From the NCBI GenBank assembly GCA_019054805.1, contig JAHQIY010000001.1, positions 11,174,501-11,238,500 on the forward strand: a stretch of DNA of 64,000 nucleotides. Direction: 5' to 3'. This document shows positions 2,280 through 55,000 of the stretch, in pieces. The position numbers were made by a program, and so were the translations under genes. The notes beneath the pieces were generated by a model, which did not search any database, was not told where the DNA came from, and was given only the letters and a program-made list of their open reading frames with translations. This DNA comes from Brachionus manjavacas. Taxonomy: Eukaryota > Rotifera > Eurotatoria > Ploima > Brachionidae. How positions within the stretch are numbered: position 1 is the first letter of the stretch; every line of letters begins with the position of its first letter.

Positions 2280-3390
2280 ATAGTAGAAGTAGTAGTATGT
2301 TGAACCGGTAATTGGTTCCATATGTTTACAACTCTATTAGTGAAAAAATGGAAACGCGAGGAACAGTTTTTTATCTGTTCACGACGTGGAGTCTTTGAAT
2401 GCCTTCTTAAGTCGTATACTTGACCGCTTTGACCATTGGTTAATCCTTTTTTAAACTCAATAACTGAATTTTATTAATTTTTTTGAACGACTGGATCAGA
2501 TCTCCTCTCAATCTTCTCGTTGCTAGGTCCGTCAGGCCGAAATTAGGTAAGCGTGTTGAGTAAGTCAGGTGCTTTAAATTTGGAACTAACATAGTAGCTC
2601 TACGTTGAATATTTTCTATCATATCGATATCTTTTTTTAAGGTAAGGGCACCAAGAGGTTATTGCAAATTCTAAGTGAGGTCTGACCATTGAAGTGTACA
2701 GTAGTTTAATGTTGTTAACATTGGGATATCTAAGCGATTTTTTCAACATACACAGAATCCTATTAGCTCTAGCTGTGACATAGTTTACTTGTGTGTCCCA
2801 TTTTAGCTCATTTTTGATATTTATTCCGAGATATCTTTCGCATTCTGATTTATTAAGTGGAAATGATTCAATTTTGTAATCATGTTTTGAGTTGTGATGA
2901 CCAAAATGGACAACTTTACATTTCTCGACATTAAGCTGAGCAGACCAGTCTCGTGACCACTTACATATATTATCAATGTCGAGTTGTAACTTATAATTAG
3001 AAGAAGAATCTACTATGGTGGTTATAATCTTGTTGTCATCAGCGTACGCTTTCGAGCTATTATGGATACTCTCAAATAAATCATTTATGTATATAATGAA
3101 TAAAATGGGACCAAGGACATAACTTTGAGGAACTCCACTTGTGACTTCAGCCCATTGACTTAGCTTCGCCAAGCACGACTTGTTGTGATCGTCCAGTTAG
3201 AAATGAACTTATCCAGTTTATGAAACGCTCGCTAAAACCATAAAATTTAAGTTTAAAGACTAGCTTTGTATGTGAAACCTTGTCAAAAGCTTTTGCAAAA
3301 TCTGTCTACATCACATCCACGGGGTAGCCATTTGTAATCAGGTCCAAAGTCTCAAGTAAATTTGTACTGCAGGATCTAAATTAGCTTACT
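2280..3390 (-). mobile_element. 5'-truncated CR1/Jockey-type LINE, RT fragment
   Basis: Read on the minus strand, conceptual translation gives the middle and end of a non-LTR reverse transcriptase: CSTNLLETLD, then DFAKAFDKV, GVPQ...LGPILFIIYINDL, the catalytic YADD box (about 3040-3050), KCKVVHFG, VRPHLEFA, QRRAT and the C-terminal RVVNIWNQLP close to 2300. The frame is broken: one shift lies near 3165 just before GVPQ, another near 2620, and there is an in-frame stop near 3305. There is no endonuclease domain, so the copy is 5' truncated and dead. The 3' end finishes in a CTACTACTTCTACTA tract, much like the copy at 4830-5640. Clade assignment is from motif style only. Confidence 0.85.
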
Positions 3391-4829: not shown

Positions 4830-5640
4830 ATAAAATACAAATATTCTCTTCAACACATCAAAATGTGTGGTTATGCATTACGGTCATAAAAACAAAGAAT
4901 TCACTTATTCTATTAATGGTAAACAGTTATCAACGTCTGAAACCGAAAGAGATCTTGGAGTTATCTTCAATACAAATCTCAAATGGAAAAACCAAGTGAT
5001 AGAGGCTACAAACAAAGCAAATCAAATGTTGGGTCGCATCAGGAAATCATTCGCTCGTTTTGATTGTAAGTTATTTAGATCATTGTATTTAACTTTTGTT
5101 CGTCCTCTTTTGGAATTTGCTGTGCCAGTATGGTCTCCATTTCTTAAGTCGGATTGTGAGAATCTTGAGAGGATTCAACGCAGAGCTACGAAATTTGTTT
5201 CTTCAATTAGAAACAAAACGTATGAAAGCATATTGAAGGCTTTAAACATTCCAAATCTGGTGGAAAGAAGAAAAAGAGGTGATCTAATTCAATTATACAA
5301 GTTCATGCATGGAATAGAATTGGTTAAAAAAAGCAACAATTTTAATGTCACCAAAATCCAAGGAAGAGGTCACTGCTTCAAATATCACAAAGAAATTTCG
5401 AGGCTCCAACATAGAGATAACTTTTTTTTCAACAGAACCGCTAACATATGGAACTCACTGCCAAATCAAATAGTTGAAGCCCCTAATGTTAACAGCTTTA
5501 AAGCAGGCATTGATTGCTGGATGAGCAGCAATCAATCACATCAGCTGTCATAGTGTGCCTTATCAGCACACTCGCTGGTTAGCCAGCTACAGTCAAAACT
5601 ACTACTACTATTGCTACTACAAAACCCAAAAGGGCTTTAA
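4830..5640 (+). mobile_element. LINE 3' fragment: RT thumb/C-terminus plus 3' UTR
   Basis: An uninterrupted frame of about 240 codons (about 4834-5553) encodes the last third of a CR1/Jockey-type reverse transcriptase. It runs from FNTSKCVVMHYG through ERDLGVIF, VRPLLEFAVPVWSP, ERIQRRATKFV and RKRGDLIQLYK to NRTANIWNSLPNQIV, with a normal stop at 5551-5553. The catalytic palm (YADD) is missing, so the copy is 5' truncated. After the stop, a short 3' UTR carries an ACTACTACTACTATTGCTAC tract. The frame has no stops, so this is the youngest-looking LINE remnant here. No target duplication was found, as expected for CR1-like elements. Confidence 0.85.
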
Positions 5641-13184: not shown

Positions 13185-14790
13185 TTGATTATCATAGCTT
13201 TGCATTCTTTACATTTTAAATACGTTTTAAATAAATGCGCTTCAAGTTGCTCAAAAATACTATCATTAATATTTATCAAGTCCTTCAAAACTGGTGTTGT
13301 CCCACTAAAATAGAAAGAATCCGACATATCGCCAATCCCCAAATCAGGTAAAAAAACTGACCCATCCAAATATAGACCAATCGCCCTCACTTCCATAACT
13401 TGCAAAATAATGGAACGTCTAATAAAAAACACTACGATGAATCACTTATTTAATAACAATCTAATCACCAAACAACAGCATGGATTTGTGAAGTTAAAAT
13501 CTTGCGTTAAAAATCTAATTGAAACACTTGACTATATAACCGAGACTCTCAATCGTGGTTTTGCGGCTATTATAATATTTTTGGACTTTGCCAAAGCCTT
13601 TGACAAAGTAAATCACGCACAACTTATATACAAACTAAGTAGAATAGGCTTCAAAGGTGAAATAATTATATGGCTAACAAACTGGTTAACTGAGAGAAAA
13701 CAAAGAGTAATAATCGAAAATGAATACTCAGAATGGCTTGACGTCCTTTCTGGGGTGGCACAAGGAAGTGTTTTAGGACCCATACTATTTGTGATTTTCA
13801 TCAACGACATGCCAAACGTAATCCAAAGTATTTGTAAGCTCTTCGCAGATGACTATTAAGAGCAATTAGAAACTCAACCGACTTTGCCTTAGTCCAAAAA
13901 AATTTAGACGCCCTTGTCAAATGGTCAAAAGATTGGAACATGCTTTTTAATACTGAGAAATGTAAGATAATGTATATAGGTATCGGTAAAGGAAAAAATA
14001 AAATAAATTTTACAAACTATACATGTGAAATGGAGGATATAAAAACTGGAATAAGACACGCGCTAAAAGAAACAACTATTGAAAATGACCTAGGAATTTT
14101 AATCTCAAACGATCCAAAAATGTGCGAGCACTCAAAAAAGGCAGCTTCAAAAGCAAACTCTGTACTTGGTCAACTAAAAAGAACAATTAAAAAGTGGAAT
14201 GTAGCAACACTCAAGACTCTGTATACATCTTTTATAAGACCGCATTTAGAATATGCATCTGCAGTTTGCTCACCATATCGTCAAAAAGATATCAAGATAC
14301 TAGAACAGGTTCAAAGAAGGTCAACAAAACTTGTTTATGAATTAAGACATCTGCCTTATCTCGAAAGATTACAAAAGCTTAAGCTTACAACCTTAAAAGA
14401 GAGAAGAGAAAGAGGAGACGCTATTCAATTCTTCAAAATAGAAACTAAAATAAACGTAATTGATTGGTACCATCCTAATAGTATTGCACACTATGTTTGT
14501 GCTGATGGTCCAGCAAATAATATAAGAGGTAAAAAAATAGATACATGAGACAAATTACGAAAAATTGTGACCAAAGAGAGTTCTTTTTCTCCAACAGAAT
14601 AGTACCGATTTGGAATAATCTACCAATTGAAACTACAAATGTAACCAATGTTAACCTATTCAAGAACAACTACGACAAATTTAAGAAGCATAATAAATGA
14701 AATTTATAGCACATCTGCCATAGAGTGATGTCTATTGTTATCATTCTCCGCAGGAAACTTCGGTTCCTGTTGCCGACATATTTATTTTAA
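13185..14790 (+). mobile_element. CR1/Jockey-type LINE, 5'-truncated, frameshifted RT
   Basis: Translation gives most of a non-LTR reverse transcriptase in three frames. Frame one has FKTGVVPLK, PIPKSGKKTDPSKYRPIALTS, NLITKQQHGFVKLKSCVKNL, FLDFAKAFDKVNHA, GVAQGSVLGPILFVIFINDM and LFADD, then a stop at 13857-13859. A shift near 13856 continues as LLRAIRNSTDFALVQKNL, NTEKCKIMYIG and IRPHLEYASAVCSPYRQKDI. A second shift near 14540 leads to FFFSNRIVPIWNNLPIE and a stop at about 14700. An earlier in-frame stop sits at about 13310, where Trp would be expected (PLK*KESDISPIPK). There is no endonuclease domain. This is the longest RT remnant in the window and is non-functional. Confidence 0.88.
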
Positions 14791-35859: not shown

Positions 35860-36735
35860 ATGGAAGTACCAGCCGAACAAAAGGCCCAGGAGAACACGGT
35901 GTACAAAATAAATCACTTTACCAATGATGGAATGTTGACTAGAAGAAAAGAGGCTAATGGTTTCCCATTCTCTGCTAGTAATGCCCCAAAAAATTTGAAT
36001 ATTTAATTAAATTAAAATTTATTTAAATTAAATCTTAATCTAGAGATGTCTGACGACTTTTACAAAATAATAGAGAGGAACGAAACCTCGAAGACGGTTC
36101 CCTATCGACCCATGACTTCAAATGCGTTCAGGGTTCCGTATAACTTGGGCGATCCTATCGGAGCATCGCACTACGACTCTGAATTCAGTCATAAAACAGT
36201 GAACAAAGAAGAGCCGTTTCGAACTGGAACCGCTAGTGGTTACCGTTCCAACAACCCTCATCCTTCAAAAGTACCTCTAGCTTTTTTTTTACTAAGTTAA
36301 TTTAAAGAAGGAAATTATTGCAAGGAATTTATGGTGTTCAGATTCAGACCTTTGAAATTGGAGAAAAATCCGATGAGTGACTGGTCACGTCCTTTAGGTG
36401 ATAAGCTAATTTCTCAGGTGATAAAAAATCAAATGAAATCGACATACGCCAGTGACTATGTAAATAATGTAGAAGAGAAAGCCAAGTTCGAAGAAAGAGC
36501 TCGACAGACAACAATTCCTTCAAGCTACATGCGTCAGTCTCAATTTAGATCACAGCGAGAATTGGACCAAAAGAGCTCTATTCCAGACTTTAAATACAAT
36601 GATCCATTTACCTATGAAAGTTCGTATATTAGTCCGTACAGATTTGCCTCTAATTTGCGTCATCAGGAACCCGCGGTCGGAGTAGTACCTGGTTGCTCGA
36701 GTTTTTGGAAAAATTTTGGAAGAACTAACAATTAG
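35860..36735 (+). CDS. Unrecognised protein, possibly an axonemal/sperm microtubule protein
   Basis: Three-exon model: 35860-35977, 36044-36270, 36325-36735, giving 251 residues with consistent phases and introns of 66 and 54 bp (GTAATG...CTAG and GTACCT...CAAG). The protein is polar, with no signal peptide or membrane segment. It has repeated short blocks of the kind GASHYDSEF, STYASDYV and ESSYISPYRF, plus a central GTASGYRSNNPHP motif followed by FMVFRFRPL. Repeated S/T-x-Y-x-S-x-Y/F patterns are common in small ciliary and sperm microtubule-associated proteins, so that role is a guess, not an identification. If intron 1 is not spliced, exon 1 stops after about 48 codons and translation could start at the ATG at 36046. 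Confidence 0.65.
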
Positions 36736-36804: not shown

Positions 36805-36898
36805 TTAAATACTCAGACATCTACGGAAGGCTAAATGGAGTAATGGTCATCATTTTTTATAAGATTTAATGACCTCCATCTTTCATCACAGTATTTAA
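36805..36898 (-). ncRNA. C/D-box snoRNA candidate, U14-like guide
   Basis: On the minus strand: terminal stem TTAAATACT/AGTATTTAA (9 bp, perfect; 36890-36898 with 36805-36813), box C GTGATGA (36883-36889), box C' ATGATGA (36847-36853) and box D CTGA (36813-36816), about 94 nt in all. The bases just before box D read GCCTTCCGTAGATGT. From memory, vertebrate U14 (SNORD14) has CTTCCTTGGATGT directly before its box D, pairing with 18S rRNA at human C462, so this is a U14-type antisense element with two changes. The second U14 element (the 18S 83-95 pairing) is not seen. The candidate lies just past the 3' end of the neighbouring plus-strand gene. Confidence 0.7.
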
Positions 36899-39107
36899 AT
36901 TGAATTTTGGTTATAAAAAATATAAATGTTGTCCTATGAATGCATTTTTATACAGAAAAAAATGTGCTTAATTTTATACTTGAACTAACATTAACTGCAG
37001 TAATTTAATTTTGTAATTAAATTAACAAAATACTAGCAATAAGAAAAAAATAAATAATAAGTTTTTATTGAAAATTTGAACAAAAAATTTTCTTTCCAAA
37101 AAATATTTTCTTATTTTGCTAATTTGAAATTTAATAGTTTATTAAAAAAATTATATATTAAAATAAATAATTTTCAAAAAAAATAACTTTTTTTCTAAAA
37201 GTTTATAATAAATTATGTGAATGCAACATAGTGCAACATTCTCATTCATTAAAGAATTGTTTAGAAAAAAAGACCAATTTATTAACAAGCCTCAACAAGT
37301 AAAAAATATGCTGAAACATATCTCTTATTTTAGAATAGATTTTACATTATATTAGATTAGAGCAAAAAGGTTTGATATAAGAAATTTTTTTTTGAACAAT
37401 CAAAACAAATTTAATAAGATAAAGTTGCTTAAATTTCAATTACTTAAATTAAAATATTTTCCTAAAAATTAATTGCAATTGTTTTTTTTTCAATTTAAAA
37501 ATACTTTTAAAAAAATTCAAATTAAAAATTATAAAATCTTCAATTTTTCGAAAAAAATTAATGTCTTTAACTCTTGACTTTTACTGTTATAAATAAGGCG
37601 AAGATCAACTAACGTAGCAAAAATAAGCAAGTCTATAACTTTAACTCTATAAGAAACTTAAACTCTTTAACAAATAAGTCTTTAATTTATTAGACTTGCT
37701 TATTGAATAGAATTAAGTTAGAACTCAAAAAAATGACTTCATCCCCATTTTTCTAATTTTTGAGTTAATTGTGGAAATTTTTTTTTAAAATTAAATTTGT
37801 ATTTTGAATAGAATAAAGGCTAAAATTTGAAATTTTTATTAATTGAAAATAACCTAAATTTAAGTCTATGATAAATTTCTAAATAAAAATTAAACATGAT
37901 TTAAATGGTCAAAAAGAAATAAACTTTAAATTTCTAGACTTATTTCTAAGAGAAGTTAACGCTAATTAAAAATGACCAAAAGAGATTTACGTATTAAAAA
38001 TTTTGCTAATTAGGATCTTTTATCAAAATATGATTTTTTTCTAATGTAGAAAAAACAAGCAAAAACGAACTTATAAAGTAAAATTTATCTTTTGATTTTT
38101 ACGTCAATATCTAGAAAATACTACTGTCTAAGAATATTTAACAAATTAAGATATTTTAAAGAAATGATTCTTTGATATTAGACTACTTTTGATTAAAAAT
38201 TTAATATAATGATATACTAATTTTAGATCGATAAATACAACTTAAGTAAATTTTAATATTTTATTGAATCTAAAATAAATAAAAAACTAAAAGATCAAGG
38301 AATAAATGTTCTTTATTATTAAAAAAAAAATATTTTAAGTTTATTAAAAAGTAAAATAAATAGATAAAATCTTTGATTTTAAAATTTATCAAAAAATAAA
38401 TCAATTCATTCAATTGTTCGAATGCATTACAAATTTTATTCAAAATGATAGAAGAGCAGATAAATGAACTTTTTACCAAATTATGCTAAAAACTAAGCAT
38501 TTAAAACTTAATTACCAAAAAAATTAATAAAAAATTTGAATAAGGTAATTTATTTATAATTTTTAATATTTTTTTATTTTATTTTAATCTTTAATTAAGC
38601 ATTTTAGCTATCAAGATAGATTTTAACTGTTCGAATAATCCTGCGTAGAAAACTCTCTTAAACTTTCCGATCAAAAACATTATTAAAAGACAAAATTTAT
38701 TCCCTTTTAGTAATTCTTAACATACAATTATTTAAAAAATAAAGACTTGTTTTTTTTAATTGCAAAAAATTAATTTTTATTTTGTAAGTAGATAGAAAAA
38801 ATAAAGGACGAAATTTTTAAGAAAATTTTGCATATTTCGCTATTTTAATTTATAATAGGTTTTTCTCATAGATTAAATATCATTTTTCATACCTAAAAGT
38901 ATGAAAAATAGTAACCAAATATATTTATCATAGATATAATAATGAAGCTTCAAAAATCTATATCGTAAATATTTAATTTGAGATATTAAATTTTTCCTCA
39001 AAGAGAAATTAAAAAATTTTAATAATAAGCCTTTAAATTGAGATTGAATTTTTTCTCTAGAAAATACGTTTCAATAATAGAACAAATATTTAGAATTATT
39101 AAATTAA
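36899..39107. other. AT-rich intergenic, no gene seen
   Basis: No coding sequence. An 11-bp perfect hairpin with a 6-base loop (ATTTTTCATAC / GTATGAAAAAT) lies at 38882-38909. Otherwise nothing recognised. Confidence 0.5.
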
Positions 39108-39203
39108 ATTTGGTCATAATCAGCCTACGGAAGGCAATGGATGTTATTCATCATTAAAGTTAAGGCATGATAATTCCATTTTTTCATCATTTTACAACCA
39201 AAT
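39108..39203 (-). ncRNA. C/D-box snoRNA candidate, copy downstream of RPL21
   Basis: On the minus strand: box C ATGATGA (39184-39190), box C' ATGATGA (39148-39154) and box D CTGA (39120-39123). They are enclosed by TTTGGTTGTAA and TTATGACCAAA, which pair with wobble pairs. The sequence between C' and D is nearly identical to that of the RPL21-intron copy; the antisense block CATCCATTGCCTTCCGTAGG just before box D is the same. The part between C and C' has diverged, as expected for paralogues kept for the D guide. It lies about 100 bases past the RPL21 stop on the same strand. Confidence 0.75.
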
Positions 39204-39299
39204 TAATCTTTTTTCTAGTTAATAAGCTTAAACAAATTAAATCGAAAAAAAAGTTTCTTTTAAATATTTTATTTAATCGATCAATAGAAATTTATTGAT

Positions 39300-40033
39300 T
39301 TAGGCAATAAATTCATATGGGATCGGATTAACTGTTTGTGGTTCATTGTTTTTGGTGCTGACGAAATGAGCCGGTCTTGGTCCTAGTGGCTGAAATGAAA
39401 AAATTAGTTAAAATAATTTTCATTAAACTTATTTAAAAAATAAAATCTATTCTGGTTATGGTCAGCCTACGGAAGGCAATGGATGCTATTCATCATTAAA
39501 TATAAGACGTGAAAAATCCATTTTTTCATCATTTAATAACCAAATAAAATATTTTGCATCAGAATAAAATAAATTACTTTTCTCTTCAATTGACTTTGGT
39601 CCAATTTGATGTTCTTTTCCTTGGCATCCTTTTTCAACAATTCAATTTTTTTAACTCTGTTCAAAAAGTCCAATCTTGAGTTTGAATGCTTGACGTGCTC
39701 AATACGGACGTTGATTCTTTTCTGCAAAATTCTGTTTCGGACTTGTTTGTTGACAATAACACCAACAGCATGTGGAGTGACATTGAAAACTCTACCAGTT
39801 TTGCCATGGTAGAACTTATGTGGCAAGCCTTTTTGAATGGCACCATTACCCTAGTAAAAAATGCTGCGTTAATATCTTTATCGTCTGAGCTAGAAACTGC
39901 TTACTTTAATGTCGACGATGTCACCACGTTTGTACACTTTCATGTAGGTTGACAATGGTATGACACCATGTCTTCTGAATGGTCTAGCAAACAAGTATCT
40001 AGTACCACGTCTGTAACCCTTTGTGTTAGTCAT
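39300..40033 (-). CDS. RPL21: 60S ribosomal protein L21 (eL21)
   Basis: Component of the large ribosomal subunit. Three exons on the minus strand: 39905-40033, 39578-39850 and 39300-39389, with introns of 54 and 188 bp (GTAAGC...CTAG and GTAATT...TCAG), all in phase 0. The 163-residue product starts [20 protein letters not shown], continues with [30 protein letters not shown] and [15 protein letters not shown], and ends PHKF-type protein with PRPAHF and NPIPYEFIA, which agrees with animal RPL21 over its full length. Intron 2 hosts a C/D-box snoRNA candidate, a common arrangement in ribosomal protein genes. The start lies 704 bases from the divergent GlnRS start. Confidence 0.96.
39453..39542 (-). 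ncRNA. C/D-box snoRNA candidate inside RPL21 intron 2
   Basis: On the minus strand: terminal stem TGGTTAT/ATAACCA (7 bp; 39536-39542 with 39453-39459), box C ATGATGA (39526-39532), box C' ATGATGA (39490-39496) and box D CTGA (39462-39465), about 90 nt in all. It sits wholly within the 188-base intron, in the sense of the host gene, about 60 bases from the 3' splice site; intron-hosted snoRNAs typically have such spacing. The guide before box D (CATCCATTGCCTTCCGTAGG) is complementary to CCTACGGAAGGCAATGGATG. The CTACGGAAGGCA part closely resembles the 18S block around human position 462-472 (CCAAGGAAGGCA). Confidence 0.8.
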
Positions 40034-52089: not shown

Positions 52090-55000
52090 TTATTTTTCAT
52101 AATTATTTTTTTGAATATAACTTTTGGCTATCTTACTATAGCGTTTAATCTCATCAGCTCGTTCTAAATTTCTGTACTTGTCTTTCAAATGAACAGAGTT
52201 GCGCGCCTTAAGCTGTTCATTGAAACGCTTCAAAATTTTTGCCCAATTTCCTTTACCATAAAGCTCCACACCAATAGCCAGATAAATTGTCTCGTTCTCA
52301 GTCCATCTTGTTCTTTGGTTTTGAGCAACACCTTTTTTTGTCTCGTGTGATGACTTTTTTTTAACATCTGAATCACTATCGGTATCAATTTCGGAAAGTT
52401 CTGAAGAGTCATCAACACGGAATTTTTTTTTGATGCTTTTTCTTCTTTTCTGGGCTGATTTATTTACCAATTCTTCCTTAGAACTACTTTCATAATTTTT
52501 TGAGCTTTTTTTTCTTGTTTTATTTCTGAATTCTACTGATGAGTCCGAGTCATTTGGCAAAGCTGATTCGGCATTTGCAAGTCTTGATGTAGTCGGTTTA
52601 GGACTAGAAGCAGATCTTTCTAATGCCAATTCTTTGCTTTTTCTGGTTTGCTTTGCTCTAGTGGTGAGATTGAAATTGAGCTCGTCATCGGAATCATCTT
52701 GGAATTGAGTAAAATCTTGTTGGATTCCATTCGGTTCAATTGATGAAACTCTAGTAGCTCTTAATTTAGACGCTGTCGGCTCTTCTAGGGCAATTGACAT
52801 TCGATTTTGAATGCCAATTACTGGACTAACTGGTCTTTCTTCATCATCATTATATTGAATATTCTAAATAATAAATTTTATTTAAAAATTAATTTTTTTT
52901 TTTAATTACCATTAATTCATCTGTATCTGAGTTAATCGTTGTTTTTTTTTGCATCGAAGTTTCTAGTTTAGGTTTTCTTTTTTCACTGGGTGATACATAA
53001 ATATCGATGCCATTTTTCATTGATTGGAATTTTTTAACTAAGTTCTCTTCCACATTTTCATTTTTTAGATCATGGAAATTTGAAATTTCAAAAAGGATGC
53101 TTGTATTCTTGTACTCAACTTTTTGACTAAATATTTCGCTCAGATCAGTATAAAAAGTCTCATTTGTGTAAGTCTATAAAAATTTTAAATTTTTCATTGT
53201 ACAAATAAATTAATTAGTAGATGGATAATCAATTTCCAGTTAAATTTACGGCAGATTTGATTATTATTGAAAAAAAATTTTGGCACAAAAAAATAAAGAT
53301 TATCTTTAAAAATTCAAGATTTTAAAATTTTAATTAAACATTCTTTAAATCTTAAAATAAAATCCCTTATTTGGTCTTTGGAATACCTTTGTTTGAAAAG
53401 CTACTTAGATGTTGCATTCTAATTTAAATGTAAAATTATTTTTATAATAAGACAATAATAATACTGGGACCATTATTGTTAACTATTTTTTTTAAATATG
53501 TAGCCAAATTATTTGGTGGATGATACTTAACAAATGAGAATAATGAGGAACCCAATGGACATATATTAGCTAGTAAATAAGGCAAAATATTTGGTGAATT
53601 TATTTGATGAAAAAAAAATTTATTTTCATTTTGGGTTCTGAAAAAAGGTACTGAATATAGATGAGTTTTGATACTCAATATAAGCTTATGATGCTTAAGA
53701 TCAGAATAGATTGGCATGTTGAAATTTATGATCAATTTTGATGCTCAAAATGATCAAATCAAGTTTTAATTATGAAATAAATAAAAATTTCTTAATAGAA
53801 TTAATGCAATGGTACATTTTTGGATTTAACATACTATGTTGAATAAAAAGATAGCTTTTGCAATATCCAAATGTACACTGCAAAGTGCACACCATCCATT
53901 TTTTGTAGGTTTTACCTTTAGATTTTAAAAAGTATGTTTAATCCAAAAATGTACCATTGCATCAATTCTATTGAGAAAAAAAATTCATTTAATAAGTAAA
54001 ACTTTGTTTGATCATTTTGAGCATCAAAAATTGATCATAAATTTCAAAATGCCAATAGATTAAATGCTTAAAAGTAAAACTGCTAGAAAATAGGGTAAAT
54101 TTTTGATCTTGATTATTCGGCTCAAGTATCTAAATACTGATCAATTTGAGTAATTGTCAATTGATACACTAGAAAGCTACTAAAATAAATGATTCAAGAA
54201 AAAAAAACAAATTATTTTATAACCTGTTCATTTTTTTTGTTAAATGGGTTGCTTTGTTACAAAAAAATTTTAATTTTATTATAGAATTTTCTCCTGTAAA
54301 ATAACGTAATCACCCGAATTGAGTGACATGTCTTTAAAATAGAGTACTCTATTTTAGTAACATGTTATTCAAAATTGAACATTACTCTCTTTAAAACGAG
54401 AGCTCATTTTTTAGTGACATGTCAATATTTGATTTATTAACATTTCACTAAATTCGGATAATAACGTTAGTATTAATTTAAAAATACAGTACTTTTTAAA
54501 CTTATCTTTAAAAAAACAGGATCTTTAATCTAATAACTAAATTCCAAATTAAAAATTAAAAAATTCTACATAACTCAAGTGCTTTCATAGGTCTTTTTAA
54601 TTTGATGATTTTTCCCGGAAATGATTTTTTTAATTCCATTACTATACAAATTTAAAGAACTGCTTTTTTTAAACCATCAAAGAGTAAGAAAATCATTACC
54701 TCATTTTCATTAGTATCATTGGCAAAAAACGGATCTTTCCGAATCAAGTCTTCTACTTTTTCTTCATGAATGTTAAAAAATTTTTCTCTCAAAAGAACTG
54801 ACGCCTTTCAAATAGAAAATTAAAATTGAAAATATCAAAATGTTAAAATTCACTTTTTTAAGCGTGATTGATCTTATCTCGGTGAGAATATCCAAAGTGA
54901 TAAATCTGTTTAAATTTTCATTGAACAAAGTTCCTAGAATCGAAAAGAAGGATTCTTCGTTTTTATTTTTAAAAAATGCGCCATATTGATTAATCAAATA

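Follow-up and report, generated by a model that had tools for sequence, protein, structure and literature searches.

Three candidate small nucleolar RNA (snoRNA) units, here labelled U1, U2, and U3, lie on the minus strand in and around the RPL21 gene of Brachionus manjavacas, within a window of 64,000 nucleotides (the whole stretch of DNA that was analysed). The locus raises the question of which nucleotides of the 18S rRNA these units address, and how they stand to U14, the snoRNA whose methylation site lies in the same rRNA block. The sequence-only reading had described three minus-strand box C/D units with boxes C, C′, and D and terminal stems, and this description is confirmed: the boxes can be read directly (Table 1), and the stems comprise 8 (U1), 13 (U2), and 9 (U3) pairs, wobbles included. 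Each unit thereby combines a box C (RUGAUGA), a box D (CUGA), and a closing terminal stem, and directly 5′ of box D each carries at least 10 nt of complementarity to rRNA; alignment of the guides to the species' own 18S rRNA, a check proposed along with that reading, yielded 15 (U1), 12 (U2), and 12 (U3) perfect pairs. By their anatomy, U1, U2, and U3 are thus box C/D snoRNA candidates.

Table 1. Features of the RPL21 locus and of related guide and rRNA genes (window positions, unless a locus or contig handle is given)
Feature	Position	Strand	Basis or remark
U1, box C/D snoRNA candidate	36805-36898	-	boxes, stem, 15 perfect pairs to own 18S
U1 boxes	C GTGATGA 36883-36889; C′ ATGATGA 36847-36853; D CTGA 36813-36816	-	
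GCCTTCCGTAG of U1	36821-36831	-	with ATGT to 36817, a 15-nt antisense element
U2, box C/D snoRNA candidate directly downstream of RPL21	39108-39203	-	boxes, 13-pair stem, 12 perfect pairs
U2 boxes	C 39184-39190; C′ 39148-39154; D 39120-39123	-	
GCCTTCCGTAG of U2	39125-39135	-	1 base from box D
U3, box C/D snoRNA candidate in RPL21 coding intron 2	39453-39542	-	boxes, stem, D guide as in U2
U3 boxes	C 39526-39532; C′ 39490-39496; D 39462-39465	-	
GCCTTCCGTAG of U3	39467-39477	-	1 base from box D
RPL21 coding region, ATG to stop, three coding exons	39300-40033	-	exon joining; Pfam Ribosomal_L21e
RPL21 coding intron 2 (GT...AG), host of U3	39390-39577	-	exon joining
U83-like guide for 18S A425 (human A468)	L027:1489-1591		contig C2, RPL3 intron; pattern search
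Tandem U14 pair (U14a, U14b)	L018:1501-1699 (G000:C3:4000509-4000707)		contig C3
Own 18S rRNA	L026:112-1918		

The antisense element near box D is common to all three units, as had been claimed, in the form of the 11-mer GCCTTCCGTAG. In the 114-Mb assembly (25% GC), this 11-mer is found at 11 places, namely the three units, four 18S copies, and four others that, judged by eye, have no adjacent box D. The 10-mer CCTTCCGTAG occurs three times in the 64-kb window against 0.02 expected occurrences. A scan of the window for RTGATGA, CTGA, a stem, and 10 or more pairs to the own 18S or 5.8S rRNA in the D register returned U1, U2, and U3 only, and the reversed-rRNA control of the same scan gave a single weaker register of U1. 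The fold z-scores are −2.55 (U1), −3.21 (U2), and −1.84 (U3), with 3, 1, and 8 of 200 shuffles each, respectively, folding equally well or better. The covariance-model check was less favorable: in the Rfam run, none of the units reaches a gathering score, and the best matches (SNORD14 for U1 and snoU83D for U2, at 22–22.5 bits and E 0.7–0.9) are at chance level.

U2 and U3 show 82% identity along 116 nt, with the similarity ending little beyond the unit, and by this comparison they are duplicates. None of the differences between them affects the 31 positions of boxes and guide (0/31, versus 21/85 elsewhere; Fisher p 0.0009), a pattern that suggests selection on the guide. U1 likely belongs to the same series, short of proof, given its position and its 36-nt C-to-C′ spacing, which, together with the CTTA before C′, is as in U2 and U3. 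Its C-to-C′ stretch matches those of U2/U3 at 13 and 15 of 29 positions, and a match this good against both is reached by 3,810 of 200,000 random segments of the window. The shared GCCTTCCGTAG alone is no proof of common descent for U1, because the common target imposes the element; in DNA searches of the assembly, the U3 query finds U3 and U2 only, and the U1 query finds U1 only. The local duplication series of the earlier reading, with a conserved D guide and a diverged C–C′ part, therefore stands for U2 and U3 and is not demonstrated by sequence for U1. A further segment of the window (53615-53710, plus strand), which gave a weak hit with a model built on the three units (25.4 bits, E 0.021), was rejected as a fourth family member, as it has no D guide to 18S or 5.8S rRNA that passes the scan.

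In box C/D guides, the methylated base pairs with the nucleotide five before box D (the D+5 rule), and the human 18S number corresponds here to the own position plus 43. The own 18S reads CACATCTACGGAAGGCAGCAG from position 414, contains ACATCTACGGAAGGCAG in all four rDNA copies found, and has CUACGG in the target block, where the Rfam consensus has CUAAGG. In the D+5 register, U1 points to C419 (human C462, the U14 site) through 15 contiguous Watson–Crick pairs (−28.4 kcal/mol), and for U2 as well as U3 the predicted target is C422 (about human 465), reached through 12 contiguous perfect pairs at guide positions −2 to −13. The guides had been predicted to face the 18S block near human 458–472, and the own 18S indeed carries the exact complement of GCCTTCCGTAG. 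The D guide had been regarded as shared, which is correct for the common element but not for the box D register, in which U1 differs from U2 and U3; hence, there are two targets, C419 and C422, rather than the three neighboring nucleotides that had been considered. For U2/U3, a further possible target at 18S position 1794 was discarded as weaker (10 pairs, including a wobble). The C-to-C′ stretch of U1 has no run of at least 7 contiguous pairs to the own 18S, the longest runs in U2 and U3 are 8 and 7, and no unit has a run of at least 7 to 5.8S rRNA, compared with up to 7 (U1), 9 (U2), and 7 (U3) in the reversed-18S control. Since this pairing is not above the control, no target of the candidate box D′ (CTTA in all three units) is seen in 18S or 5.8S rRNA. 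Folding of the short hairpin gave no stable structure, so no additional stability is claimed for the UACG loop of the own 18S.

The same block is faced by a fourth guide, located in an intron of RPL3, whose identity as host follows from a flanking exon (Pfam Ribosomal_L3, 1e-68). This U83-like locus makes 13 contiguous Watson–Crick pairs in its D register, with position −5 opposite A425 (human A468), and thus has A468 at box D+5, as in SNORD83/snR52. Against the Rfam U83 models, it remains below gathering (snoU83B, 24.5 bits versus 35; snoU83D, 26.1 versus 55). The pattern search for the A468 register returned one other place, on C55, which was rejected because it has no comparable pairing at 401–445 (−11.3 kcal/mol). 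The distance from C419 to A425 is six bases, matching the spacing of the U14 and U83/snR52 targets in chicken (C423 and A429; PMC2653536) and Neurospora (C411 and A417; PMC2780460). In U2 and U3, box D lies three bases further on than in U83/snR52, so that −5 pairs with C422, A425 pairs with −8, and the predicted target is C422; U2 and U3 are thereby excluded as A468 guides, the proper one residing in RPL3.

The assignment of U1 to C419 leads to the U14 genes found in this genome, and our reading, which we hold to be probable, is that U1, U2, and U3 guide 2′-O-methylation within one small 18S hairpin (H13–14 region), with the C462 job passed from U14 to U1. A tandem U14 pair is present on contig C3, and U14a and U14b match Rfam SNORD14 with 44.1 and 35.7 bits (gathering 64). 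The SNORD14 search gave 11 matches at E of at most 10, from 99 scored of 1464 candidates; the eight inspected comprise the two U14 genes, U1, and five without the U14 A domain. The exact U14 A-domain word, whose target in the own 18S lies at position 82, is found at seven places: in each of the two U14 genes, in four rDNA copies, and once in an 18S fragment. Locus L031 (G000:C9:3778729), judged by eye, is a fragment of 18S rRNA that lies off the main rDNA contig. U1 resembles U14 in its D guide for the C462 equivalent, in which the G at −5 pairs with C419, and lacks the A domain that would pair near 18S position 83 (no CATTCGCGGTTTC in U1). In the absence of this domain, U1–U3 are ruled out as simple U14 copies.

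The D guides of the U14 pair fit the own 18S poorly. On 18S 401–445, U14a and U14b pair with −7.9 and −9.8 kcal/mol, compared with −28.4 for U1. The energies were also calculated on short blocks: U14a gives −8.2 on the own block, −14.7 on the human-type block, and −16.3 on the Rfam consensus block; U14b gives −10.7, −14.5, and −12.6, a gain of only 2–4 kcal/mol; and U1 gives −28.1, −19.1, and −18.3, respectively. The usual block is thus the better partner for U14, and the changed one for U1. Places within two mismatches of CTTCCGTRGATGTCTGA number four, with U1 as the sole exact match, and the other three lack a C box within 110 nt upstream. A relaxed search for human-type C462 guides returned 88 places versus 62 for the reversed pattern, which marks its output as noise; besides the window unit and the two U14 genes, seven of the remaining 85 places were examined, and none has boxes C and D placed on one strand. 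No good C462 guide besides U1 was found in these searches, and a further U14 or other C462 guide could exist, including in stretches of the assembly that read N, as the SNORD14 search scored 99 of the 1464 candidates. Judged by eye, U14a and U14b each have an upstream CCAAGG/CCTAGG that is able to pair with the core of the D guide, and one pair differs between the copies by a compensatory A–U to U–A change.

The main rival to a handover holds that U1–U3 are ordinary working C/D guides, that U14 still guides C419 by imperfect pairing, and that U1 is merely redundant. Both U14 copies keep the G at −5 opposite C419 together with several flanking pairs, U14b retains its −9.8 kcal/mol, and this weak pairing might still suffice in vivo. 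Nor has the guide diverged significantly more than its surroundings: between U14a and U14b, 4/13 D guide positions have changed versus 11/74 elsewhere (p 0.23) and 0/13 in the A domain. However, the core duplex is interrupted by mismatches at −3 and −8 in each of the two copies and by a further one at −7 in U14b (the register of U14a was written out by hand from the guide, and that of U14b was computed), whereas U1 makes 15 perfect pairs, and we regard mere redundancy as unlikely.

The three units differ in their position relative to RPL21. The three joined coding exons encode a 163-aa L21e protein (Pfam PF01157, 1.1e-47), and the placement that had been proposed, with one unit inside intron 2 and one about 100 bases past the stop, agrees with U3 in intron 2 and U2 starting 97 nt beyond the stop codon. 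U3 would be processed from the spliced-out RPL21 intron. U2 is located beyond both AATAAA signals (39296 and 39273), and U1 lies 2.2 kb further on, more than 2 kb from RPL21 and 70 nt past the stop (36733-36735) of a plus-strand reading frame for which no Pfam match was found with the two pieces tried; both may derive from RNA beyond the RPL21 poly(A) signals or from their own promoters. The window also contains reading frames at 2600-3196, 4834-5553, and 13314-14548 whose translations, by eye, resemble pieces of LINE-type reverse transcriptases. The locations outside introns would suit unexpressed snoRNA copies, most likely U2 or U1, yet U2 has the longest terminal stem and no changes versus U3 at the 31 box and guide positions, and U1 is the sole good C462 guide found, so that we consider one or more silent copies decidedly unlikely. 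We give the lowest probability to a mainly antisense role of U2 and U3, possibly also of U1, in helping the 18S hairpin to fold, without methylation of C422: two copies carry the identical guide, the hairpin, as depicted in the Rfam consensus, is covered by the paired stretch over its full length, searches of the chicken and Neurospora main texts under several spellings yielded no target equivalent to C422, and one study names U14 among C/D snoRNAs needing base pairing without methylation (PMC12645875), but box D of U2/U3 is at normal methylation-guide spacing, with perfect pairing from −2 to −13.

U1, U2, and U3 are, most likely, working methylation guides. How the division of labor arose can be sketched tentatively: the H14 loop block of the 18S would have changed in this lineage, after which the two ancient jobs of U14 would have been split. 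The tandem pair would have kept its 18S 5′-end pairing role and let its D guide decay, and U1, as the U14 mismatches suggest, would have taken over methylation of C462 (Cm462). U2/U3 and the U83-like RPL3 guide would have followed the changed block, with U2/U3 adding a new methylation three bases away, at C422, so that four guide genes (U1, U2, U3, and U83-like) would now serve a 19-base stretch (18S 415–433). The order of these events is our inference from the present-day guides and rRNA. If true, this would illustrate clearly how guide RNAs keep pace, or fail to keep pace, with an altered rRNA target, and an animal with the two activities of U14 on separate genes would allow each to be tested apart. 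A review describes it as unclear whether U14-guided methylation is needed for processing (PMC7277114).

Among the papers listed in the literature searches, none was seen to describe a split U14 or a snoRNA survey in rotifers. C422 as a methylation site, three bases after the U14 site, is absent, under several spellings, from the two published tables and main texts that were searched (chicken, PMC2653536; Neurospora, PMC2780460). Yeast U14 contacts H6/6a and, through its B domain, H13–14, where it guides C414 (PMC6300602); for human U14, hybrids that would direct methylation of 18S-462 have been described (PMC12645875), and U14 is listed for the C462 equivalents in chicken (PMC2653536) and Neurospora (PMC2780460). 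U1 shares with U14/SNORD14 the D guide position, the target nucleotide, and the box D flank (GATGTCTGAG), but the A domain (CATTCGC...) is missing from U1 and is present in the two contig-C3 U14 genes, whose D guide is mismatched. U2 faces the 18S block of U83/SNORD83 and yeast snR52, and has TGCCTTCC and, by eye, an internal helix in common with the Rfam snoU83D alignment; however, the RPL3 intron locus is the better U83/SNORD83 counterpart. In mouse, a single differentially methylated DNA region carries the annotation of both Rpl3 and Snord83b (PMC12996923); the host labels in the chicken table are different ones (LOC771432 and chr1_11.94; PMC2653536). Vertebrate RPL21 genes also host snoRNAs (SNORD102/U102 and H/ACA snoRNAs), which, in chicken, lie within RPL21 introns as well (PMC2653536); U102 in that table guides 28S G3502 (PMC2653536), and thus differs from the guide found here.
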